Virus record (IMG/VR): IMGVR_UViG_3300014501_000042
Coordinates: 1-36,563 of that record
DNA: 36,563 nucleotides
Direction: 5' to 3' (one strand)
Source: a virus
The notes under the pieces: model-generated
Database searches by the model: none
What the model saw: the letters and a program-made list of their open reading frames with translations, nothing else
Told to the model about the DNA's origin: nothing
Translations under genes and position numbers: made by a program
Shown: in pieces, positions 1-33,751 of the stretch
How positions within the stretch are numbered: position 1 is the first letter of the stretch
Layout of the letters: each line of letters opens with the position of its first letter

Positions 1-106
1 CAGCGCGACGGAAATGGTCCATGGCGTAAGCGATTGATGCGCCGCAACCGGGGTTTTTGCAGGCATTTTTGAGATTTTACCTCGCTCGCGGGCCCCTTGC
101 GTCGAG
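1..106. other. Left flank, outside the putative attL
   Basis: This stretch precedes the 17-bp repeat and is probably chromosomal. No gene can be assigned. On the minus strand an ATG at 66-64 opens a frame running off the edge (begins MPAKTPVAAHQ), with a GAGG about 13 nt upstream. Another minus frame contains CKNPGCG, which looks like a zinc knuckle but has no start codon. A plus frame stops at about 72. The piece is too short to choose between them. Confidence 0.3.
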
Positions 107-123
107 CTTAACATAACACCCAT
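107..123 (+). repeat. 17-bp direct repeat, putative attL core
   Basis: The sequence cttaacataacacccat occurs here and again, perfectly and in the same orientation, at 36441-36457. The two copies bracket a complete siphophage gene set. In both, cccat is followed 7-11 bases later by atggg, giving a small imperfect dyad such as tyrosine recombinases bind. That it is the crossover core is an inference; no empty site can be seen. It is not tRNA-like. Confidence 0.55.
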
Positions 124-125
124 AC

Positions 126-154
126 TTGACATGGGAGGCTCGCCAGCCGATAAT
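126..154 (+). promoter_or_regulatory. Sigma70-type promoter of the left operon
   Basis: TTGACA (126-131) and GATAAT (149-154) are separated by exactly 17 bp, a near-consensus housekeeping promoter in otherwise GC-rich DNA. It starts directly after the putative attL core and points into the leader and replication gene, so it is probably the main early promoter. A start near 161 would leave a leader of about 400 nt before the first gene. Confidence 0.6.
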
Positions 155-278
155 TTCGGGTGTTGCAGTGCTGGAGGCGCGATCGAGGGGAATCGAGCCT
201 GGGGGCGATAAATTTTGGCCGGGATGGGGCGGGAGATTTGTGTCGTGCTGGCGGCGGGGCTGGTCCGAAGAGGGGGGG

Positions 279-332
279 ATGAATGTGCCAACCCCACCCG
301 CGCGGGCCGCGCCTGAGCGCACCAGCGGGTGA
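279..332 (+). CDS. Possible 17-aa leader peptide
   Basis: A short open frame starts at ATG 279 directly after a G-rich Shine-Dalgarno-like run (agaggggggg) and encodes MNVPTPPARAAPERTSG. It lies in the leader between the first promoter and the structured region at 345-544. It could couple translation to folding of that leader, or be chance. No family is recognisable. Confidence 0.2.
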   Translation: MNVPTPPARAAPERTSG

Positions 333-340
333 AGAAAAAC

Positions 341-370
341 TTGACGTCTTCGAAGAGGCGTGGTTATCAT
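341..370 (+). promoter_or_regulatory. Second promoter, overlapping the long inverted repeat
   Basis: TTGACG (341-346) and TATCAT (365-370) are 18 bp apart. The interval between them is almost entirely the left arm of the 22-bp inverted repeat (345-366), which contains the palindrome cttcgaag. That placement would suit repressor occlusion or control by cruciform extrusion. A transcript starting near 377 would lack the left arm and could not form the long stem, whereas one from the 126-154 promoter could. Confidence 0.45.
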
Positions 371-544
371 TCCACGCAGATCACTCTCGCGAAAGGGTGA
401 TCCGGGCTTCGCGGCCCGCCCGTGGTGGCTCAGTGGCGATTGACCTTGCGCTGAGTCTAACCACGCCTCTTCGACGACGCGAGCATCTGCCGCAGGCATG
501 ACGCCTCGACCTCGTGACTCGAAGGGCAAGGTCAATCGAGGTCG
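345..544 (+). ncRNA. Highly structured leader with long stem and pseudoknot-like pairing
   Basis: Arms 345-366 and 458-479 pair over 22 bp with one mismatch. Inside are hairpins 379-387/394-402 (GNRA-like GCGA in its loop), 403-407/414-418 and 429-433/451-455, plus a helix 372-376/421-425 that encloses the first two. The loop of the last hairpin (437-449) is perfectly complementary over 13 nt to downstream 526-538. A rival helix 507-514/537-544 overlaps the end of that pairing, and 358-363/372-377 competes with the long stem. The design suggests a switching leader, an antitermination RNA or a cruciform replication element, directly upstream of the initiator gene at 559. I know of no named family that matches. 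Confidence 0.5.
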
Positions 545-558
545 GGAAGTGAGCCACG

Positions 559-1839
559 GTGGGCTCGCGCATTTCTTCCGATGACGCGCCGAACGCGCGC
601 AGCGATTCCAATTCCCAACTGCACCAGACGACGTTCATCAGTGATGAGGCGTACAAGCTTCACATCGAGACGCACGGCGGTGTCGTCCTCCGTTTCCTGG
701 TAGAGTTGAGGCGGCGAAAAGTTTTTGTCCACGCGGCGTCCTTCGAAGTGCTGGTGAGGATGCTGGAGGTGCTCGATGAAGACGCGCTCCGACAGCACCG
801 CTTCGTCGCCAGGGTCAGCCAGGGCTATCTCTGCGAAGCCACCGGCCGAATACCGAGCACCGGAACGCGTGGACATATCGCTCGGCTGCTGCAAGAACTG
901 GTCGCCGCCAAGATCATCACCTGCATCGAAAATGGAACATCGACCAGCGCCAGTTCCTACGAGCTGCATTTGCCGAAGGAAGCCACCGATCGGTCCAATC
1001 CGTTTCCCGTCAAACGATCCAGCAAGAAGGGGCGTTGCGCCCGTGATAGTACCCAGCGCGCGCGGGCGCTTGTACCTAACAATCCTATAACGCGCGCCGG
1101 CGCTGGGAACCAGCGCGCGCCTGAGGTTGTACCTGACGGAACCCTAGCGCGCGCCGGCGCTTGTAACCAGCGCGCGCCGGCGCTAGGAGGGGGTACTATC
1201 ACGGGCGCAACACCCCCCCCCGATACTACAGAGGTCTTTTCTTCTTCTTCTCCTGCTGTAGAAGAAGAAGAGCGGAGGGCCGATGCTGCTGCTTCAGTGC
1301 TGGCTGAGTTCGGGTTCGGCGACGAAGCGGTCCTCCAAATCCTCAACCTTCCAACCGCGACGCTGCTAGTGGTCCGTGCCGCCTGCGAGGAGGCGACGCA
1401 CAAGCCACTGGGCCAGCGATTCGGATTGGCCAGGAGCCTGATCAAAAAACCGGGCAACATCAGCCCGCATATTCTCGATCGCGTTCGCAGGCAGATCGAG
1501 GACGCCAGGGTGAAGCCGTTCGACGGGATGATCGAGCCGGCGAAGGTTGCGCGGCAGATCGATGCGGCCACATCACAGTTTCGATCTGCTCAACCGGAGG
1601 ATCCACGCGAGCTGCGGCGAGCCAAGTTGGCGGAACTGAAGGCATTGCCGGATGAGCAACTGGCGGGATTGATCGATCGGCTCATCGAGCAGGTGCCGGC
1701 GGACAATCACTTCCTCCGCAATTTGTACGAAGGGAAACGATTCGTCGCGTTGAATTTCGCGCCGATGGTGGACGCGCTGCACGATCAACTGACGCGCGAG
1801 CGGTCCGCGGCCGCGGCGGAAGTGGGGGGGCAGCCATGA
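559..1839 (+). CDS. Lambda O-like replication initiator with internal origin
   Basis: The 426-aa product starts at GTG 559, with gggaag as a modest Shine-Dalgarno. Residues about 30-140 are compact and helix-rich and look like a winged-helix DNA-binding domain. Residues about 155-235 are a low-complexity linker (repeated RAGAGNQRAP-type peptides, acid and serine stretches). Residues about 240-426 are helical and may bind partners. The linker is encoded by GC-rich iterons inside a long inverted repeat, exactly as oriLambda lies inside the O gene. By that analogy the protein binds its own gene and recruits the host helicase machinery. There is no lambda P or helicase gene beside it. The assignment rests on architecture, since I cannot show homology. 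A more general phage regulator with a winged helix is the alternative. Confidence 0.55.
   Translation: MGSRISSDDAPNARSDSNSQLHQTTFISDEAYKLHIETHGGVVLRFLVELRRRKVFVHAASFEVLVRMLEVLDEDALRQHRFVARVSQGYLCEATGRIPSTGTRGHIARLLQELVAAKIITCIENGTSTSASSYELHLPKEATDRSNPFPVKRSSKKGRCARDSTQRARALVPNNPITRAGAGNQRAPEVVPDGTLARAGACNQRAPALGGGTITGATPPPDTTEVFSSSSPAVEEEERRADAAASVLAEFGFGDEAVLQILNLPTATLLVVRAACEEATHKPLGQRFGLARSLIKKPGNISPHILDRVRRQIEDARVKPFDGMIEPAKVARQIDAATSQFRSAQPEDPRELRRAKLAELKALPDEQLAGLIDRLIEQVPADNHFLRNLYEGKRFVALNFAPMVDALHDQLTRERSAAAAEVGGQP
1034..1271 (+). other. Putative replication origin (iterons in an inverted repeat)
   Basis: Two perfect 21-bp inverted arms, 1034-1054 and 1191-1211, enclose five copies of a GC-rich iteron with consensus agcgcgcgccggcgctt plus gtacc/gtaacc. 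The copies begin near 1055, 1090, 1112, 1146 and 1169, so spacing alternates about 35/22/34/23. Each iteron is itself nearly palindromic. A run of C (about 1213-1221) follows, then a pyrimidine/purine tract with perfect 12-bp arms (1240-1251 and 1260-1271), which could serve as an unwinding region. All of it is inside the initiator coding sequence. The function is inferred by analogy with lambda. Confidence 0.6.
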
Positions 1840-2084
1840 AGCTTCCCGATCCGCACCTGGCGGTGAGCACTTCGGCGTGTACGAGGCCGATCCCGGCGGG
1901 TTATTTGACCGTCGAGCAGATCGCCCAGCGATCCGGCTGGCCGGCGGAGATGCTGCACAAAAAGTTTCTGCGGCTTTGGAGTGAGCAGGGCGTCGCGGTG
2001 AAGCGCGGCGAGCAGTGGTACGTAGACCCGATTGTAATCCCGGCGATCGAGAAAGATCGCAGACCGCAGGTTCGCCGGACATGA
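1836..2084 (+). CDS. Small helix-turn-helix protein
   Basis: The 82-aa product overlaps the initiator by ATGA, so it is probably translationally coupled to it. Residues about 22-70 (YLTVEQIAQRSGWPAEMLHKK onward) read as a helix-turn-helix followed by a short wing (VAVKRGEQWYVDP), similar to excisionase or MerR-like DNA-binding proteins. A copy of the dispersed repeat cacctggcggtgagcac (1854-1870) lies inside the gene and encodes LAVSTSA. It could be a replication partner, an excisionase or a regulator. The fold is likely; the role is unknown. Confidence 0.6.
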   Translation: MKLPDPHLAVSTSACTRPIPAGYLTVEQIAQRSGWPAEMLHKKFLRLWSEQGVAVKRGEQWYVDPIVIPAIEKDRRPQVRRT

Positions 2085-2157
2085 AATTCCAGCGGCGCGG
2101 TCGATCGAGGTTTTTTGACGTTGGTGTTAATGACTCGATCGACGGCCGCTGGAAATT
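2084..2157. repeat. Imperfect inverted repeat after the HTH gene
   Basis: Arms of about 24 bp (2084-2109 and 2134-2157, cores ttccagcggc/gccgctggaa and cgatcgag/ctcgatcg) flank an AT-richer loop containing TTTTTTGACG. There is no T-run after the 3' arm, so it is not a classical terminator. It is the only sizeable gap in the first 6 kb and may be an operator or an RNA-processing hairpin separating the replication genes from the small-gene chain. Confidence 0.45.
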
Positions 2158-2253
2158 AAGTGCCGACTGCAAAGTCAAAAACCGGCGCGCGCCAAAGGGC
2201 AGGCGGCGCCGGTGGATTAGAAGCCCCGACAACTTACAGGATTGGAGGCAGTC

Positions 2254-2469
2254 ATGCCATTGTCAGTGCGCGAGCTCGTGGACGAAACGCCGACCCCGAG
2301 CGTCGAGTCGATTCGGCGGCGGCAGGAACGAGCGAACGAACGTCATCGCGCCGAGATTGATTTCATCGGCCTTGTGGCTGACCTGGCCGGGGCGGTAGAG
2401 CGCCTGGAATCGACGATCCGCTCGCGCTTCCCCACCGTCGAGGAATTGGAAAGCGAGGTACGATCATGA
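2254..2469 (+). CDS. Small charged helical protein
   Basis: The start is ATG 2254 behind a strong GGAGG at the right distance; a TTG at 2242 lies inside that ribosome-binding site and is discarded. The 71-aa product is charged and almost wholly helical (ESIRRRQERANERHRAEI, then LAGAVERLESTIRSRFP), which suggests a coiled coil. It ends in EVRS and overlaps the next gene at gaggtacgatcATGA, the first of a series of near-identical gene junctions. No known family is recognised. Confidence 0.7.
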   Translation: MPLSVRELVDETPTPSVESIRRRQERANERHRAEIDFIGLVADLAGAVERLESTIRSRFPTVEELESEVRS

Positions 2470-2759
2470 GCGAGGCTCGCATAATTCAACTTGGTCGCCA
2501 TGAGGCTGACCTCAAAGAATTCCGAAAGGTGACTTCCCCCAATGGCGCTGTCTCCCGGGAGTCAGTGGTAGTCGGAACTATCAACGCGGAGTTAGAGCTT
2601 CTCATTGATACGAGCAAAATCCCCTGGCACAAAATCCAGCGGGCGCTTCTCGCCAAGACCAAACGCACGGTCACGAATGGCGGCCTAGTCGTCATCCGCG
2701 TTAAATCTGGAACCGAGAAGATGATCGCCACGCCGCAGCTCCAGGAGGTGCGATCATGA
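2466..2759 (+). CDS. Hypothetical small early protein
   Basis: The 97-aa product overlaps both neighbours by ATGA. It has an alternating pattern suggesting a small alpha/beta domain (VVVGTINAELELLID, then GGLVVIRVKSGTEKMIA). Its C-terminus QEVRS is encoded by the shared junction GGAGGTGCGATCATGA (2744-2759), which also holds the ribosome-binding site of the next gene. No motif identifies a function. Confidence 0.65.
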   Translation: MSEARIIQLGRHEADLKEFRKVTSPNGAVSRESVVVGTINAELELLIDTSKIPWHKIQRALLAKTKRTVTNGGLVVIRVKSGTEKMIATPQLQEVRS

Positions 2760-2962
2760 CGCGATGCCAATCCGTTGCAGATTTGCGGCGAGAGTTTCCT
2801 CGCGACACGATCGTGCATCACCTCGGCGGCAAAATGAGAATCGTCGGGCACAGGATCACGCGGACGTACAAGCAGCCGCAATTGTTGGTGCAAACGTCTG
2901 AAGCTGCGGACGCTCGCAGAATATGGATTGGGGCGCCGTGCGCCGCGGAGGTGCGATCATGA
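2756..2962 (+). CDS. Hypothetical small early protein
   Basis: The 68-aa basic product overlaps both neighbours. It reads as a small beta-rich domain (DTIVHHLGGKMRIVGHRITR, QLLVQTSEA), similar to short phage proteins carrying a single SH3-like or KOW-like barrel, but that is only an impression. It ends AAEVRS, encoded by another copy of GGAGGTGCGATCATGA (2947-2962). No function is assigned. Confidence 0.6.
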   Translation: MTRCQSVADLRREFPRDTIVHHLGGKMRIVGHRITRTYKQPQLLVQTSEAADARRIWIGAPCAAEVRS

Positions 2963-3210
2963 AAACCCACGGTGTGGAGATCAATCCTTCCACGGCGCGT
3001 GTCGCGCCCAGCTTCGGGGGCTTCGGCGTTTTCTGCGGCAACACGCCGATCAACTGGTACTCGAATCGCGAGATGGCCGACGCCGTTGCCCAGCGTCTGC
3101 TGCAGCTCGCGGACAAGAGAGGCGACATCAGTCTGCAACAGATCGAGGCCGATGCGCAGGACCTAATTCGCCGCGCCAAGGCCACGGCTGCGAAGGCCGG
3201 TGTTTCATGA
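2959..3210 (+). CDS. Hypothetical small early protein
   Basis: The start is placed at ATG 2959, the ATGA overlap, rather than the upstream ATG at 2923, because the shared junction gives a ribosome-binding site there. The 83-aa product has an N-terminal part with FGGFGVFCGNTPINWYSNR followed by an amphipathic helical half (MADAVAQRLLQLADKRGDISLQQIEADAQDL). No family is recognised. It is coupled downstream by ATGA to a zinc-ribbon protein. Confidence 0.65.
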   Translation: MKTHGVEINPSTARVAPSFGGFGVFCGNTPINWYSNREMADAVAQRLLQLADKRGDISLQQIEADAQDLIRRAKATAAKAGVS

Positions 3211-3488
3211 GCCGGCCGCAGGCCCCCACCTGGGCGGAGATCGAGGCTGGGATGTCCGCCGCGATCGCGGCGGGGCGGCACTGCCGGATCGAGGATTGGC
3301 ACGGCGAGGTCTGTGCCGGCTGCGACCAGTGGACGCGCGTGATTTACCACACGGCGGAGGACGGCAAGCGCTTCTGTCCGGCGTGCGCCGACAAGATGGG
3401 CCAGGGCCCGCAAGCGTGGATCGAGAAGCAAAGACGCCGCGCGGCGATGGCGGCGATGGCGGCGGCCGCACGCGGAGGTGCGCGTTGA
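3207..3488 (+). CDS. Small zinc-ribbon protein
   Basis: The 93-aa product contains two CxxC pairs (CAGC near residue 34 and CPAC near residue 60) about 25 residues apart, a typical zinc-ribbon arrangement. It then has a conserved-looking WIEKQRRRAAM helix and an Ala-rich tail. Zinc ribbons of this size in phages often contact nucleic acid or RNA polymerase; which applies here cannot be told. It ends with GGAR encoded by the junction GGAGGTGCGCGTTGA (3474-3488), which starts the next gene at TTG. Confidence 0.65.
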   Translation: MSRPQAPTWAEIEAGMSAAIAAGRHCRIEDWHGEVCAGCDQWTRVIYHTAEDGKRFCPACADKMGQGPQAWIEKQRRRAAMAAMAAAARGGAR

Positions 3489-3730
3489 GCGCGACGCCGA
3501 GAATCATCCTGCGCATCGAGATTTCCCCGCGGGCCAGGTCCGCGCTCGAGGCGTACTGCATCGGCGCGGGCAAGATCAAGATGCGGGCGATGAGCCAACT
3601 CGTGGAGTGGTTCGCGTCTCAGCCGCCGATGGTGCAGGCGTCGATCATGAACGATTTCCCGCCGAGCATCGCCGCGGAGGCCAACCGGATGATTTTGAAA
3701 AGAATTCTTTCGACGGAGGGCCGCGCGTGA
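3485..3730 (+). CDS. Small protein, possible DNA-binding regulator
   Basis: Translation probably starts at TTG 3485 (TTGA overlap) with GGAGG upstream; no in-frame ATG fits. The 81-aa product begins TPRIILRIEISPRARSALEAYC, a beta strand followed by helices, a layout seen in ribbon-helix-helix proteins, and continues SQLVEWFASQPPMVQASIMND. That pattern would suit a small dimeric repressor or activator of the early operon. This is a fold-level guess. It is coupled to the methyltransferase by GTGA. Confidence 0.55.
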   Translation: MSATPRIILRIEISPRARSALEAYCIGAGKIKMRAMSQLVEWFASQPPMVQASIMNDFPPSIAAEANRMILKRILSTEGRA

Positions 3731-4650
3731 ACCGGATCAAGGCCATCGATCTGCTTTGCGGGGCGGGCGGTTGGGGCTGCGCGACGCGCGGGCTGCCGAT
3801 CGACGTGATTCTTGCGGTCGATCTATGGGATGCTGCGTGCGTCACGTATGGATTGAATCATCCAAACGTCACCATCTGGGCCGTCGATGTGCGCGATCCG
3901 GTCGTGCAGGAGAAGATCATCGCCTTCGCCCAGGACCATGATGTGCGCTTGGTGCTCGGCGCGATCACCTGTCAATGGCTCAGCGTCTATAGGCACATCC
4001 AGAAGGTCGACCATGCCGAGCGCGAAGCGAACCGTCTCACCCTGGATTCCTGCCTCTGCCTGGTGAAACAGATCGAGCCGCAATGGTGGTGCCTGGAGGA
4101 TGTGACGCAGATTACTCGCGAGCTGCCGCCATTCACCCCTTACGAAATCTTCAACGCCGCCCACTGGTCGGCGCAGCGTCGGCGGCGTTGCTTCATCGGC
4201 GAATTTCCAAGGCCACGCAAATGTCCGGTGGGCGGCGCGAAGCTTCTGCGGGATTGCATCCGGCCAGGTCCCTATCGGATCGGGCGACGACTGATGGGGA
4301 GAATCCCACAGCGGGCCAGGACGTTCACGAAACAGACCTGTCTCGCCGCCGAGCTTGATCGCAAAGCGCCGACCGTTTTGTCTCAATGCTCTCGCAGGGA
4401 CGCGGAAATGGCGATCGTCGATCCGTCGCTGCCCGGTGGCATGCGCAATCCGGAGTGGCAGGAGTTGGCGGCGATCCAGGGCTTCCCCGACGATTACCTT
4501 TTTTACGGCTCACCCACCGACGTGATGAAGCAGGTCGGCGGCGCGGTTCCGATCCCCCTGGCCCACGCCATCCTTCGCGGCATCGTCGAGCAGGCAGCGC
4601 GGCACAATTCTCACGCGGCGATCGCCGCAACACACGGAGGTGCACGTTGA
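3727..4650 (+). CDS. C5-cytosine DNA methyltransferase (variant motif IV)
   Basis: The 307-aa product (GTG start) has the class order of C5-cytosine methyltransferases. Motif I is DLLCGAGGWG near the N-terminus. Motif IV is ITCQW with catalytic Cys82, motif VI is LEDVT in place of ENV, motif VIII is AQRRRR, and motif X is VGGAVPIPLAHAI at the C-terminus. The usual Pro before the catalytic Cys is Thr, and Asn of ENV is Asp. Both are unusual and may alter activity or mark a divergent branch. No restriction enzyme is adjacent, so it is a solitary enzyme that probably protects phage DNA from host restriction. The region between VIII and X is short for a target-recognition domain. Confidence 0.85.
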   Translation: MNRIKAIDLLCGAGGWGCATRGLPIDVILAVDLWDAACVTYGLNHPNVTIWAVDVRDPVVQEKIIAFAQDHDVRLVLGAITCQWLSVYRHIQKVDHAEREANRLTLDSCLCLVKQIEPQWWCLEDVTQITRELPPFTPYEIFNAAHWSAQRRRRCFIGEFPRPRKCPVGGAKLLRDCIRPGPYRIGRRLMGRIPQRARTFTKQTCLAAELDRKAPTVLSQCSRRDAEMAIVDPSLPGGMRNPEWQELAAIQGFPDDYLFYGSPTDVMKQVGGAVPIPLAHAILRGIVEQAARHNSHAAIAATHGGAR

Positions 4651-6191
4651 CAGCGACATTGGCGGCCAGCCCTGAGCTGGGCCGAAGGGAGCCAATTAAA
4701 AAGGTGAACGGGCATCCGGCGGTGAGCAAATCGCCGGCGACATCGCCGCGCATGACGGTGCGGACCGCATCGCCACCGGCGACGGTGGTCGACGAGGATT
4801 TGCAGTTTCATCCTGCGGCCGAGATCGTGCCGCCGCTGCCCGATGTGGAGTTGGCGCAGTTGGCCGATCACTTCCGACGCCTGGGCAGCGCACCGAAGTT
4901 TCTGCGGGCTGGCCGGCTCATCATCGACAACCGCGATCGCGTTCTCGCTTGCAAAATGGCCGGTCTGCCATTACAGTTCGAGCAATGGGACGGATTCGGC
5001 TCACCTGCGGAGTTGGCGGCGCGGCTCAACATTCCGCCGCACCTCAACGAAAGCCAACGTGCGTGCAGCGCCGTCCTCATCGCCCAGCAGCTCGCCCGGG
5101 AGCATGGGCTGCCGCAGCGCCCCAGGGATGAGAAAGGGGCGTTTTTAGAGAAAAAACCCACAAGTGCAAATTTGCACTCGTGGCTGGACGCGCCTGGCGG
5201 CGTGTACCGGGGAATCGTCCAGACCGCCATCGCCATCGCCGGGGCACATCGCCGCAGCTTTTTTTACGCCGAACAGATGAGCCGTGAATCCGCCGATCTT
5301 TTCGGCAAGGTCCACGGCGGGAAGCTCAACCTCAATCAGGCCCGACTCAAACAGTCCAAAAACCTGGCGGTTCGCAAACTCGCCAATGTGAATGGCGATG
5401 CTCGTGGTTACAACCACGATAGTGCCGACTGCCAAGTCACGGTGGGCGATTGCCTGAAGATCATGCCCAAGATGAAGGATAAATCCTTCCCCCTCATCTT
5501 CGCCGATCCGCCCTACAACCAGGGCGAGCATTACGATGCCGACCCCACGCGCGACAAGCTGCCCGTCGACAAATATCTCGCCTGGTGCGAACAGTGGATG
5601 CGTCACTGCGCGCGGCTGCTCACGTCCGACGGCTCATTGTTCGTGATGATCTCGACGCGCTACGCCGGCCGCTTCGACGTGCTGCTGCGCAACCTGGGCC
5701 TGCACTGGCGCGCGATGATCACCTGGCACGGCAACTTCCCCGAACACACCCGCGCCAACTTCCAGCCGGCGGCGCGGATCATCCACTACTTCACCCGCTC
5801 GCCCAGCAAATTCATCTTCAACGATGATCTGATCCGCATGCCGTCGCGCCGGGACCAGATCGAGGATGCGCGGCGCGTCAGCGAGAAGGGCATCGTCCCT
5901 CACGACGTCTGGCAGATCCCCTGGGAGATTCCCTGCGTCACCGGCAACTCCAAAGAGCGCGTCCCGTTCGACGACATGCCGCCGCAACTGCCCCAGAAAC
6001 TTCTCACGCGCATCGTCCTGGCCGCGAGCAATCCCGGCGATCGAGTCTTCGACCCCTTCACCGGCAACGGCACCACCTGGCGCGCCTGCGGCGAGCACAA
6101 TAGAAAATTCACCGGCATCGAGCGATCCGAAAAATACGCCGCTCAGGCGCGCCGCTGGGCGCCTTCGCTTCCCGAGGGAGGCAAATCATGA
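4647..6191 (+). CDS. ParB-like domain fused to N4/N6 DNA methyltransferase
   Basis: The 514-aa product starts at TTG 4647 (TTGA overlap, GGAGG upstream). Residues about 65-160 resemble the ParB/sulfiredoxin-like N-terminal domain (LIIDNRDRVLACKMAGLPLQ), followed by a helical segment. Residues about 270-510 are an amino-methyltransferase with DPPYN at 287-291 and FDPFTGNGTT near 468-477, the catalytic-motif-first order of the beta class. Such ParB-methylase fusions are common in phages and methylate adenine-N6 or cytosine-N4. With the C5 enzyme upstream it would give the phage two kinds of base modification. No cognate nuclease is present. Confidence 0.85.
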   Translation: MTATLAASPELGRREPIKKVNGHPAVSKSPATSPRMTVRTASPPATVVDEDLQFHPAAEIVPPLPDVELAQLADHFRRLGSAPKFLRAGRLIIDNRDRVLACKMAGLPLQFEQWDGFGSPAELAARLNIPPHLNESQRACSAVLIAQQLAREHGLPQRPRDEKGAFLEKKPTSANLHSWLDAPGGVYRGIVQTAIAIAGAHRRSFFYAEQMSRESADLFGKVHGGKLNLNQARLKQSKNLAVRKLANVNGDARGYNHDSADCQVTVGDCLKIMPKMKDKSFPLIFADPPYNQGEHYDADPTRDKLPVDKYLAWCEQWMRHCARLLTSDGSLFVMISTRYAGRFDVLLRNLGLHWRAMITWHGNFPEHTRANFQPAARIIHYFTRSPSKFIFNDDLIRMPSRRDQIEDARRVSEKGIVPHDVWQIPWEIPCVTGNSKERVPFDDMPPQLPQKLLTRIVLAASNPGDRVFDPFTGNGTTWRACGEHNRKFTGIERSEKYAAQARRWAPSLPEGGKS

Positions 6192-7056: not shown

Positions 7057-7066
7057 CTGGAAGTTT

Positions 7067-7130
7067 CTTCGCGCTCTTTGCGCCTTAGCGGTTGAAGCGT
7101 TTCCACCGCGAAGGCGCGAAGGACGCGAAG
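7067..7130. repeat. Host-type dispersed palindrome
   Basis: Arms 7067-7092 and 7105-7130 are complementary at 22 of 26 positions (cttcgcg...gcgccttagcggt against accgcgaaggcgcgaag...cgcgaag). This gcgaaggcgcgaagg style of paired repeat resembles the second copy type at 12867-12947 and is of a kind I associate with Planctomycetota and Verrucomicrobiota intergenic DNA. It fills the gap between two small genes. As RNA it would form a long hairpin, but no T-run follows. Confidence 0.6.
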
Positions 7131-7160
7131 AAGAGCCAATTTTACCGAAAGGAGTCTGCG

Positions 7161-10965: not shown

Positions 10966-11238
10966 ATGGCGAATGATGTTTGTGATTCGATCGCGGCCGC
11001 TGAGCAGGTGGCGCTCTTGCGCGCCCATGGGTTCGGGCCGCTGCTGGACGTGCTGGAGAACGATCCCACCGTCTTCTTCTGCACCAACGGGTCCCCGGTC
11101 ATGACCCGCATCGCCGAGCGCCTGGGCTGCTCGGATGACGCGGTGCTGCGGATGCTGCGAAGCGCGCGGGCACTGCTGGACGGCGAGATCGCCTGGAACT
11201 CGCTCGCGCCTTCGCCTGACGATCAACCCTCAACATGA
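10966..11238 (+). CDS. Small putative DNA-binding protein
   Basis: The 90-aa product starts at ATG 10966; no good Shine-Dalgarno is visible. Residues about 45-75 (MTRIAERLGCSDDAVLRMLRSARAL) read as a helix-turn-helix. The end NSLAPSPDD is encoded by a copy of the gaaggcgcgagcg-type repeat (11199-11216). It overlaps the sigma-like gene by ATGA, which suggests a joint regulatory role. Moderately sure it is a gene; the HTH is tentative. Confidence 0.55.
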   Translation: MANDVCDSIAAAEQVALLRAHGFGPLLDVLENDPTVFFCTNGSPVMTRIAERLGCSDDAVLRMLRSARALLDGEIAWNSLAPSPDDQPST

Positions 11239-11663
11239 ATGACCTCACGAATCCCACGGATGCCACGCTGTTCGAGTTCGCGCACCTGCTGCGCACGAAT
11301 CATCGCAACCGCAACCGCCGCCAGATCATGATCCGGCTGCACCAGATCGCGCAGGCGGCCACGCGCTGGCGCGGCTTCGACGCTTGGCGCGGGGCGGACC
11401 TGGAGGACGCCGCTTCCGAAGCGGTCCTGCAGGCGCTGCACCGGCTGGACCGCTTCGACAAGCGGCGCGATCATGCGTATGGCTATTTCTGCCGGATGAT
11501 TTTTCGTCTGATCGGCAAGCAGCTCCAGTCCACGCGGCGGCGGCGGCGGCTGGTGGCGCGCGTGGCCGACCTGCACCAGGACGGATTCGATTGCGGCTCC
11601 AACCGGTGGGGTGAGCATCACAAGATGGCCACCGCCCTTGAGCTGGGCAGGCCGATCTGCTGA
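11235..11663 (+). CDS. Sigma-region-2-like factor, resembling T4 gp55 late sigma
   Basis: The 142-aa product has residues 55-98 DLEDAASEAVLQALHRLDRF through AYGYFCRMIFRLI. This is the pattern of sigma region 2 (the FDxxxx...AYxYFxxMI helix) seen in phage late sigma factors such as T4 gp55, and it lacks a region 4. A basic stretch RRRRR follows (100-105). It would redirect host RNA polymerase to late promoters. Its place between the left operon and the late structural genes fits. A candidate late promoter TATAAACG lies 104 nt downstream (11767-11774). The assignment rests on motif spacing only. Confidence 0.6.
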   Translation: MNDLTNPTDATLFEFAHLLRTNHRNRNRRQIMIRLHQIAQAATRWRGFDAWRGADLEDAASEAVLQALHRLDRFDKRRDHAYGYFCRMIFRLIGKQLQSTRRRRRLVARVADLHQDGFDCGSNRWGEHHKMATALELGRPIC

Positions 11664-12852: not shown

Positions 12853-12866
12853 CCTGGGGGATTGTT

Positions 12867-12947
12867 ACCGCAGAGAACGCGGAGGACGCGGAGGTTTGGG
12901 TAGCTTCCTTCCCCTGAATTCTTTGAGTCCTCCGCGTTCTCCGCGGT
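12867..12947. repeat. Host-type dispersed palindrome
   Basis: Arms accgcagagaacgcggagg(ac) at 12867-12887 and the complementary 12927-12947 differ at one of 21 positions. This gaacgcggaggacgcggag motif is typical of the widely scattered intergenic repeats of Planctomycetota and related genomes, as far as I know. It is the second such element in the window (see 7067-7130). It could act as a bidirectional terminator or simply be a repeat acquired from the host. Confidence 0.65.
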
Positions 12948-13019
12948 GAAAAATAAAATGTCGAGAGGCGGCGTAGTGGCACGGACAATTGGAATTCTCC
13001 TGCGGGGGGCCGTGGCGAC

Positions 13020-13727: not shown

Positions 13728-14027
13728 ATGCGCGAAGTCGAATGTCCCACCGGCGCGATCGGCCAGGAGATCGAGGCGTATGTTCGCAATCTGAAACTGT
13801 TCAACGACGCGATGCACGCAGCCAAAGCGGCCAGGGACGCGGCGGAATGCCACAACGCGATGATGGGGCAGTATTACGATCGAATCCTGAACCTGCTCGT
13901 CGGTGATGGCCTGATCCACACGCTGGCCGATGGAACGCGATTGTTGGTTCAGCGGCGCGGAGACCGTTTGAACATCGAATTCTACACCGTGGAGGGGAAG
14001 TTGATGGCCGGCGGTGAGCCAAAATGA
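13728..14027 (+). CDS. Hypothetical protein preceding the integrase
   Basis: ATG 13728 has gtaggag at a good distance; the in-frame GTG at 13719 is too close to it. The 99-aa product is a long helical N-terminal half (IEAYVRNLKLFNDAMHAAKA) and a beta-hairpin C-terminal half (TLADGTRLLVQRRGDRLNIE). Its 3' end overlaps the integrase by 14 nt, so the two are probably co-expressed; a small directionality or regulatory partner is possible but unproven. Confidence 0.6.
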   Translation: MREVECPTGAIGQEIEAYVRNLKLFNDAMHAAKAARDAAECHNAMMGQYYDRILNLLVGDGLIHTLADGTRLLVQRRGDRLNIEFYTVEGKLMAGGEPK

Positions 14028-15066
14028 GAATCAGAACGCGGCGCGCAGCTCTGGCGGCGGAGGCGGCGTAGGCGCGATCGTGCTGCGGCCGTTATCGCCG
14101 ACGCTGGCGATGCCGGCCGAGGATGATGAGCAGAAACTGCTGCGGATGTGGCTGCATGGGCGATCGCCCAACACGGCGCGCAGCTACGCCAAATCGTGGA
14201 GGCGATTCCGGGAATTCTGCGACACGCCGATCCTGAGCGTCGGGCTGGCCGATCTGCAGGCGTTCGTCGATCACCTCGACCTGGCGGTGGGCAAATCCGG
14301 CAAAGTGCTAACCGCAGGTTCAAGGCATACCGTCATGGCCGGCGTCAGGAGCCTCTTCGCCTTCGTCGCGCGACTCGGGCTGATGCCGGACATCGGCAAA
14401 GCCATCCGCATGCGCGGGCTGCGGCGCACGCTCAGCGGGCGCATCCTCAGCGAGGACGATACGCGGCGGCTGATCGAGGCGGCGCGGCCGGGGCGGGATG
14501 AGATCATTCTGGAAGTCTTATACCTCTGTGCCCTCCGCAGGAGCGAGCTGGCGGCGCTGACCTGGGCGGATGCCACGCCGCGCGATGACGTGGAGGGCAT
14601 GGGCGGCCAACTGGAGATCTTCGGCAAAGGGAACAAATCACGCCCGGTGCTCGTGCCCACGGAGACGTGGGGGAAGCTGATGGGCCTGCGGCCAGCACGG
14701 CCGGCGAGTACGCCGGCGGCATTGTCATCGGCGATGGTGGGGTCCTCAATTCCCTCGAGCATCGCCAGCGGCGGCGATGCTGGCCAGCAGGCCACATGCT
14801 CGCCGCAGGCGCGGATATTCCCGATCACGGCGGGGCAGGTGTGGCGGATCGTCAAGCGGACCGCTCGCGCCGCCGGCGTGAAGGCCAGCACGTCGCCGCA
14901 CGTCCTGCGGCATTGTCACGCCACCCACGCGCTGCGCGCGGGCGTGTCGCTGTCGGTGGTCATGCGGACGCTGGGCCACGCCAACATGAGCACGACCGGC
15001 GAGTATCTTCACGCATTCCCCAACGAGAGCAGCGGCAGCGTTTTGCGGGCGCGGCGGCCTACGTAG
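14014..15066 (+). CDS. Tyrosine recombinase (integrase, XerC/D-like)
   Basis: The 350-aa product (GTG start) has an N-terminal SAM-like core-binding domain (about residues 42-125) and a catalytic domain with all six active-site positions: Arg175 in LRRSEL, Lys205 in GKGNKS, His296 and Arg299 in HVLRH, His322 in LGHAN and the nucleophile Tyr331 in TTGEYLHA. It should catalyse integration at the att sites. Two oddities stand out. It lies about 14 kb from the left and 21 kb from the right putative att copy. Residues about 226-268 are also a Ser/Ala-rich insert encoded by inverted copies of the dispersed repeat, between two conserved strands. The stop codon TAG is part of the motif ctacgtagg. Confidence 0.92.
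   Translation: MSQNENQNAARSSGGGGGVGAIVLRPLSPTLAMPAEDDEQKLLRMWLHGRSPNTARSYAKSWRRFREFCDTPILSVGLADLQAFVDHLDLAVGKSGKVLTAGSRHTVMAGVRSLFAFVARLGLMPDIGKAIRMRGLRRTLSGRILSEDDTRRLIEAARPGRDEIILEVLYLCALRRSELAALTWADATPRDDVEGMGGQLEIFGKGNKSRPVLVPTETWGKLMGLRPARPASTPAALSSAMVGSSIPSSIASGGDAGQQATCSPQARIFPITAGQVWRIVKRTARAAGVKASTSPHVLRHCHATHALRAGVSLSVVMRTLGHANMSTTGEYLHAFPNESSGSVLRARRPT
14688..14816. repeat. Inverted repeat pair inserted in the integrase
   Basis: gcctgcggccagcac with a following ggcgagtacgccgg block (from 14688) and the reverse-oriented tgctcgccgcaggc (about 14802-14815) bracket about 100 nt that contain another hairpin (gcatcgcc/ggcgatgc). The layout of two inverted short repeats around a spacer is that of a REP doublet. 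It is in frame and adds about 43 residues to the recombinase. Confidence 0.65.
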
Positions 15067-27175: not shown

Positions 27176-27195
27176 TCGGCCGACTTCAGAGGAAC

Positions 27196-27219
27196 GCCAC
27201 ACGATAGCCATCGTGTGGC
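27196..27219. repeat. Intergenic hairpin GCCACACGAT, copy 1
   Basis: gccacacgat-agcc-atcgtgtggc is a perfect 10-bp stem with a 4-nt loop between two tail genes. Related copies: 27592-27615 (one mismatch), 28771-28794 (one G-T pair) and 32724-32747. All four are in the tail module only, and none has a T-run. They could be RNA processing or stability hairpins between cistrons. Confidence 0.8.
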
Positions 27220-27235
27220 TTTCGAGGACAGAGGG

Positions 27236-27580: not shown

Positions 27581-27591
27581 CGGCGAGCAAA

Positions 27592-27615
27592 GCCACAGGA
27601 TAGCCATCCTTTGGC
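27592..27615. repeat. Intergenic hairpin GCCACACGAT, copy 2
   Basis: gccacaggat-agcc-atcctttggc, a stem with one mismatch, in the gap before the Z-like gene. The compensating change (cg to gg with cg to cc) keeps the pairing, which argues for selection on structure. Confidence 0.7.
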
Positions 27616-27632
27616 GTTCGGGGGGCAGGCGC

Positions 27633-28768: not shown

Positions 28769-28770
28769 AA

Positions 28771-28836
28771 GCCACACGATAGCTGTCGTGTGGCTTCGTA
28801 GCCCGCGGGAAATGATCGTTCCGCGGGCTACGTAGG
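28771..28836. repeat. Hairpin copy 3 plus hairpin with CTACGTAGG
   Basis: gccacacgat-agct-gtcgtgtggc (28771-28794) is followed by a second hairpin, agcccgcggga/tccgcgggct (about 28799-28830). That hairpin runs into ctacgtagg-ttc and ATG 28840. Two repeat families are therefore stacked in the leader of the tail-tube gene. Confidence 0.7.
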
Positions 28837-32712: not shown

Positions 32713-32723
32713 CCGGCTGTAAA

Positions 32724-32747
32724 GCCACACGATGGCGATCGTGTGGC
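32724..32747. repeat. Hairpin copy 4, containing a start codon
   Basis: gccacacgat-ggcg-atcgtgtggc is a perfect 10-bp stem. Unlike the other copies (gatagc), this one reads gatggc, creating the ATG at 32732 that may start the next gene inside the hairpin. Confidence 0.75.
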
Positions 32748-33751
32748 GTTCTGCGGAAATCGCGGGGTTCCGAACTGATGAGGGGGCCGTGGGGATAGCG
32801 ACACAGCGGTTCTCGGATACGAAACAGACGCAGCTGATCGACGGCTCGTGGAAGGCGACGATCGGCTGGGACGTCATCGATTACATCAGCGATTACGACG
32901 CGGTGAATTCCTGCCCGATCAAGCAGGGGAGCCAACACCCGCTGAATGAGTACCTGACCTGCACGTCGATCGGCGTGACGGAGAACAAGCTGACCAAGGC
33001 GATCGTCATCGCCGAATTCGAGGTGACGAGCCTGATCGACGCGGGTGTGAACCCGATTAACCGGCCGGAGGTAATCAATTGGAAGTGGGGCAAGCAGACG
33101 TTGCCGGTGGACACCGATGCCAGCGGCAACCCGATCGTCAACAGCGCGGGCGATGCGTTCAGGTCGAACTATAGCCGCAACTTCTCGGTGCGCTATCTGC
33201 GCGTGACGCGGTGGGAATTGTATTACGACCAGGCGCTGGCCTCGTCATACATCGACACGACCAACAGCGACACGGTCACCATCCAGCACACCCTGTCGGT
33301 GGGGCCGGGGCAGATGTATTTCGTCAATTACGCGCCGGTGGAGGAGTATCAGATCAACTCCCCCTACGTGAAGGCGATGTATGAATTCGAGATCCGCACG
33401 CCCAGCAGCCCGAACCTGACGACGCTGCAGGCACGTTACCCGTTCCAGCTTCGGCTGGTGGACCAGGGACAGCGGGGAAAATATCTCGATCCCAATTCGA
33501 CGCCGACAACGAATGCGCCGACCATGGGAAATTTCTGGCTGGGGGGGCAAGCATCGCAGGAATGCCGGCGAGAGGTACTGCTCAACGGGCAGGGGCGGCC
33601 GGCCGACGCGACCGTCAAGCTGACACAGAACCTCTACAGCGTTCAATCGAACACGATCCCCACATCGGTGCAAAAAGAGACGATCAACGGGGTCACGTTC
33701 CTGGTTTACCTGATCTATGCCGAACAGCCGTTCCTTCCCATTGGACTCTGA
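32732..33751 (+). CDS. Distal tail protein (unassigned)
   Basis: The frame gives 339 aa from ATG 32732 inside the hairpin (MAIVWRSAE); GTG 32789 behind gaggggg is the alternative start. The protein is beta-rich (WKATIGWDVIDYISDYDAVN; MYFVNYAPVEEYQINSPYVK) and carries no recognised enzymatic motif. Its place directly after the tape measure suggests a distal tail or hub component, but I see no lambda M/L/K/I/J relatives. It is very probably a virion protein of lineage-specific type. Confidence 0.65.
   Translation: MAIVWRSAEIAGFRTDEGAVGIATQRFSDTKQTQLIDGSWKATIGWDVIDYISDYDAVNSCPIKQGSQHPLNEYLTCTSIGVTENKLTKAIVIAEFEVTSLIDAGVNPINRPEVINWKWGKQTLPVDTDASGNPIVNSAGDAFRSNYSRNFSVRYLRVTRWELYYDQALASSYIDTTNSDTVTIQHTLSVGPGQMYFVNYAPVEEYQINSPYVKAMYEFEIRTPSSPNLTTLQARYPFQLRLVDQGQRGKYLDPNSTPTTNAPTMGNFWLGGQASQECRREVLLNGQGRPADATVKLTQNLYSVQSNTIPTSVQKETINGVTFLVYLIYAEQPFLPIGL

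Follow-up and report, generated by a model that had tools for sequence, protein, structure and literature searches.

A leader with antisense-like complementarity to the start of a putative replication gene in an orphan phage

Just before the first gene of its early operon, the phage analysed here carries a structured leader in which one segment can pair with the translation-initiation region of the gene that follows. We tentatively interpret this leader as RNA-level control of the early (replication) operon, acting on a putative initiator; we regard this as quite possible and hold it with reserve. In what we consider the best reading of its layout, the leader would be a same-strand antisense RNA or attenuator that works like the CI RNA of P4, the c4 RNA or the repZ pseudoknots, with membership in none of them. 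The window, by which we mean the whole stretch of DNA that was analysed, is the 36,563-base virus record IMGVR_UViG_3300014501_000042 (~63% GC); coordinates refer to it, and the leader features described below lie on its plus strand.

The leader is framed by an outer stem that joins a left arm (345-366) to a right arm (458-479) over 22 bp, with a T-C mismatch as its sole flaw. At a cut-off of 22 bp or more, no more than one mismatch and a distance within 150 nt, the window holds two inverted repeats, the second being 1029-1054/1191-1216; 60 dinucleotide shuffles gave none. Folding places hairpins P2a (379-402) and P2b (403-418) within the stem, followed by P3 (427-457; -13.8 kcal/mol alone). 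The loop of P3 carries positions 437-449 (CGATTGACCTTGC), the exact 13-nt complement of 526-538; on the plus strand of the window this is the only hairpin loop to have a complement of 13 nt within the following 150 nt, and 30 shuffles gave none. Both the 22-bp inverted repeat and the 13-nt loop complement are beyond chance. Further downstream, hairpin P4 (505-546, formed by 505-514/537-546 and 515-519/530-534; -21.5 kcal/mol) rivals 437-449 for 526-538. Two shorter pairings are likewise perfect: 6 bp at 358-363/372-377, which would form an alternative small hairpin (358-377; -9.5 kcal/mol alone) around a -10 element, and 8 bp at 507-514/537-544. Taken singly, neither is significant. The first-pass annotation had listed the outer stem, the loop complement and both shorter pairings at these positions and had proposed that they compete; all four were recovered, and folding bears out the competition. 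None of the six frames of the region scores as coding, and its folding z-score is -5.4 for 345-560 and -6.25 for 351-490, the latter ranking second of 521 plus-strand windows. Other intergenic regions of the window are as structured as the leader, which counts against a role at the RNA level.

The complementarity to the downstream start reaches past the 13-mer. Segment 418-452 is antisense, in split form, to 523-564, the translation-initiation region of gene 559-1839, and comprises 13 nt (437-449:526-538), then 8 nt (425-432:550-557) and then a G-U-containing block on the GUG codon (418-423:559-564). The target holds a probable Shine-Dalgarno sequence, GGAAGTGA, assigned by inspection at 545-552, and the GTG start codon at 559. 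RNAduplex scores the duplex at about -50 to -52 kcal/mol, a value that none of 400 shuffled leaders matched. With the 13-mer taken as given, the second block, of 8 nt, would arise by chance in 110 of 20,000 cases (~0.006).

Two promoter-like sites suggest how the leader might be transcribed. Putative promoter P2 (TTGACG-18-TATCAT, 341-370; 10/12 match to the sigma-70 consensus, 18-nt spacer) overlaps the left arm and has a predicted start at ~378; because it sits on this arm, the predicted P2 transcript lacks it. Putative promoter P1 (TTGACA-17-GATAAT, 126-154; 11/12) lies upstream of the whole domain, and its predicted transcript, starting at ~161, would carry the left arm. These are the two sigma-70-like sites in positions 1-3000, against 0.5 expected; the minus strand of the same region has no promoter-like site. 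Earlier claims of a promoter on the left arm and of two possible transcripts are thus upheld. Separately, a palindrome at 119-135 (CCCATACTTGACATGGG) lies across the -35 element of P1 and looks operator-like.

This arrangement could also be read as an early-leader RNA that would act on polymerase rather than on translation, in the manner of HK022 put (transcription antitermination) or of a Rho-dependent attenuator. The predicted P2 start is followed after 1-2 nt by two abutting hairpins, P2a lying at the 5' end of the predicted transcript, and a terminator-like hairpin stands at 549-568; both would suit such an RNA. The latter hairpin, however, has a poor U-tract and is of a kind expected about three times per 3 kb by chance, and antitermination would leave the start-region complementarity unexplained. 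Rfam lends it no match either. At the gathering score Rfam 15 returned none for the whole window, and at E up to 10 only sub-threshold noise for positions 1-2300, in agreement with the first-pass annotation, which could not match the leader to a described RNA class and had proposed a cmscan comparison with Rfam. We judge antitermination or attenuation improbable.

Folding of the alternative RNAs separates them by the left arm. RNAs that start at 161 to 350, and so hold most of this arm, form the outer stem with a probability of ~1 and the long-range pairing with a probability of ~0; with longer 3' ends the latter is still 0.0 for starts from 161 to 348. RNAs without the left arm show the long-range pairing at probabilities from near 0 to 0.9, varying with chain end and temperature, and the chain 378-565 reaches 0.998. 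In most equilibrium folds, hairpins P3 and P4 prevail over the long-range pairing, which weighs against control by RNA. These energies come from a nested model, and a true pseudoknot falls outside its scoring. The idea that only the long transcript exposes the GUG was dropped: the codon is unpaired in the fold of the RNA that starts at 161, but this result did not withstand changes of start and end and failed for starts from 250 to 348. A 13-bp helix exceeds one A-form turn. With the P3 stem closed, presumably only 3 nt (434-436) would be available to cross such a helix, which makes a strict pseudoknot doubtful; a full 13-bp pseudoknot with the hairpin intact is sterically unlikely. What survives of the earlier description as a pseudoknot-like switching leader is the competition between folds; the pseudoknot in its strict sense is in doubt, and the two local hairpins usually win in nested folding.

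Pairing in trans was weighed with the same nested-model energies. For a small RNA of 378-457, pairing with the target is favoured by ~10 kcal/mol over the separate molecules. Lengthening this RNA to 480 cuts the gain to 2.6 kcal/mol, and no intrinsic terminator that would delimit it was found after 457; both points count against the RNA interpretation.

Under RNA-level control, the leader would work as follows. An RNA starting upstream with most of the left arm (at or before 350) would fold the closed domain 345-479, which would lock 418-452 into its own hairpins and keep it from the start region at 523-564. The P2 RNA (start ~378), or a short product of its processing, would leave 418-452 free to open. 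Once opened, this segment could base-pair, in cis or in trans, with the start region, compete with P4 and mask the GUG. We infer that such pairing would reduce synthesis of the putative replication initiator and may serve copy-number control or lysogenic/superinfection control, with the state set by promoter choice, processing or RNA dosage. The stronger proposal of a new class of replication-control leader, in which tandem promoters choose between arm-locked and arm-free forms of an antisense module that shuts off the initiator, strikes us as unlikely.

The gene downstream (559-1839, plus strand; 426 aa) is a probable lambda-O-like replication initiator, judged indirectly from its in-gene repeats. 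At its 3' end it overlaps the start of the following gene (ATGA at 1836); the leader therefore stands ahead of the first gene of the early operon. Its N- and C-terminal parts are coding-like in codon use, and the codon score falls below zero in the middle, at a repeat block. This origin-like block (1029-1216) consists of three repeats with 57-bp spacing (1037-1184) enclosed by a 26-bp inverted repeat with one mismatch (1029-1054/1191-1216), and a stretch of 48% GC adjoins it. A pyrimidine-rich, low-GC stretch (1236-1262) also lies beside the block. In lambda O the origin lies mid-gene (PMC3985674). The present gene resembles it in having repeats mid-gene, flanked by two coding-like parts; it differs in the 57-bp spacing within a 26-bp inverted repeat and in that no protein similarity to known initiators was detected. 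Because the in-gene repeats resemble this layout, the gene is plausibly a replication initiator of the lambda O kind, and the label "replication gene" given by the first-pass annotation is plausible though inferred: the repeat array speaks for it, and no homologue was found. For RNA-level control of replication, the origin-like block counts in favour, and the indirect nature of the gene's identification counts against.

Comparisons of the predicted protein with Pfam, PHROGs, NCBIfam, PDB, and phage and plasmid records gave only chance-level matches, as did searches with the whole gene and its halves in IMG/VR and GTDB genome contigs. No homologue appeared in ~590 whole genomes from the phyla of the Acidobacteriota and Verrucomicrobiota loci. 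A single-sequence AlphaFold model of the N-terminal part had a mean pLDDT of 64, too uncertain for use.

The main rival of an RNA leader, and a serious one, is a DNA element: the leader might consist of inverted sites for protein binding, serving as operator or in replication control, or form a cruciform close to the origin. On this view, both inverted repeats (22 bp and 13 bp) would provide paired sites for proteins, and P2 would be turned off by protein binding or by extrusion. The outer arms are nearly perfect as DNA and span P2, the pairing 358-363/372-377 is palindromic around the -10 element, and the only other inverted repeat of equal quality in the window lies 500 bp away, around the origin-like repeats. 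Three unrelated phage loci (L014, L030 and L034) achieve the same architecture with inverted iteron arrays, which in L014 and L034 adjoin ATPase/helicase-like genes. Against a DNA element, the leader contains no repeated iteron unit, the 13-mer has no further copies in the window beyond chance, and the inner hairpins include G-U pairs; moreover, the antisense segment is directed precisely at the start region of the next gene, which a binding-site model does not require. We consider a DNA element possible, if rather doubtful.

The three loci had been candidates for relatives of the leader and were rejected, as inverted iteron arrays of unrelated phages; the idea that the leader itself is an iteron array was dropped for want of the repeated unit. 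Their inverted short-repeat arrays (CTGCGGGGACTC; CGTCCAACC), at L014 1047-1268, L030 1914-2135 and L034 2070-2248, would fold into giant hairpins and are likely replication origins of those phages.

Control through RNA pairing, as we tentatively favour for the leader, has several parallels. The CI RNA of P4 has pairing partners on either side, seqA upstream and seqC downstream, and brings about premature termination of transcription of the replication genes (PMC4825925). Like it, the leader would yield a structured same-strand RNA from untranslated sequence ahead of a replication operon, with complementarity to the adjoining part of the leader. Unlike it, the leader has its complement downstream only (526-538 was the sole nearby site in a search with the 13-mer) and over the start codon, with no upstream seqA-like complement, no termination site identified and no sequence relation found. 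In the c4 RNA of P1 and P7, antisense segments, likely in loops, complement sequence around a downstream phage gene's ribosome-binding site (PMC12197685). The leader shares the loop segment that complements a downstream ribosome-binding region (437-449/526-538 and 425-432/550-557); its target, however, is a putative initiator rather than an antirepressor, and it has no match to the covariance model of the c4 antisense RNA family (Rfam RF01695; PMC2864571), even at E up to 10.

A third parallel comes from the initiator genes repZ/repA of IncI-alpha and IncL/M plasmids. In control of the repZ type, a hairpin loop is reportedly complementary to sequence just upstream of the initiator's ribosome-binding site, and a competing hairpin is present. 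The leader resembles these systems in both respects, with a loop complement before the ribosome-binding site of the putative initiator and a competing hairpin. It differs in having no opposite-strand antisense promoter in positions 1-3000, and its 13-nt pairing is too long for a simple H-type pseudoknot. A possible leader ORF, 498-584, is the candidate here for the translated leader peptide that is coupled to the initiator in those systems; it overlaps GTG 559, and its codon score is negative. PMC10724649 cites Asano and Mizobuchi (1998) for repZ-type pseudoknot control.

By sequence comparison the phage is an orphan, with its closest terminase relative 42% identical and no similar DNA for the leader in phage and plasmid records (blastn). 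None of the terminase relatives (at most 42% identity) has the gene of 559-1839. One neighbouring gene has a single weak relative, in locus L121, from which a homologue of gene 559-1839 is likewise absent. The collections searched thus held neither a homologous leader nor a sibling phage, a result that counts against the RNA-level interpretation. Exact searches of IMG/VR with the outer-stem arm and the P3 core returned nothing, and the window has no second copy of the element. These results bear as well on whether the leader has no function and is either the remnant of a small, palindromic mobile element or a structure driven by repeats. Its sharp 22-bp terminal inverted repeats would suit a relic, as would the many further palindromic intergenic elements of the phage; yet no other copy turned up in the window or, with the arm, in IMG/VR, a target-site duplication is not evident, and the 13-nt complement beyond the repeat would go unexplained. 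A relic seems to us improbable.

The window encodes a GpA-type terminase, a lambda-family portal and an S49 protease; it also encodes an Xer-like integrase (14014-15066) and DNA methyltransferases (3478-6191). A small protein at 11235-11663 has a weak match to sigma-70 region 2 and is a possible phage transcription regulator. Genes 2 and 3 are separated by a long hairpin (2085-2158) whose loop GTTTTTTGAC can pair with the downstream GTCAAAAAC (2174-2182), the same loop-to-downstream topology as in the leader. Between late genes lie four copies of a hairpin of the form AAGCCACACGATRGC...GTGTGGC (27192-27222, 27589-27619, 28769-28796 and 32722-32749), perhaps terminators or processing sites; its half-sites have 9 matches, against 1.9 expected. 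Intergenic repeats of the GCGAAGGCGCGAAGG / CGCGGAGAACGCGGAGG type, large and palindromic, lie at 7065-7132 and 12862-12952; their resemblance to repeats of host genomes may give a hint of the host.

For plasmids and the satellite phage P4, control of replication initiators by RNA is well documented. Should the proposal for the leader be right, a tailed phage lineage of the lambda-packaging type, without described relatives, would join them, and there promoter choice would add or omit a locking arm. If it is instead a DNA element, the leader would still mark the compact control and origin region of an orphan phage.
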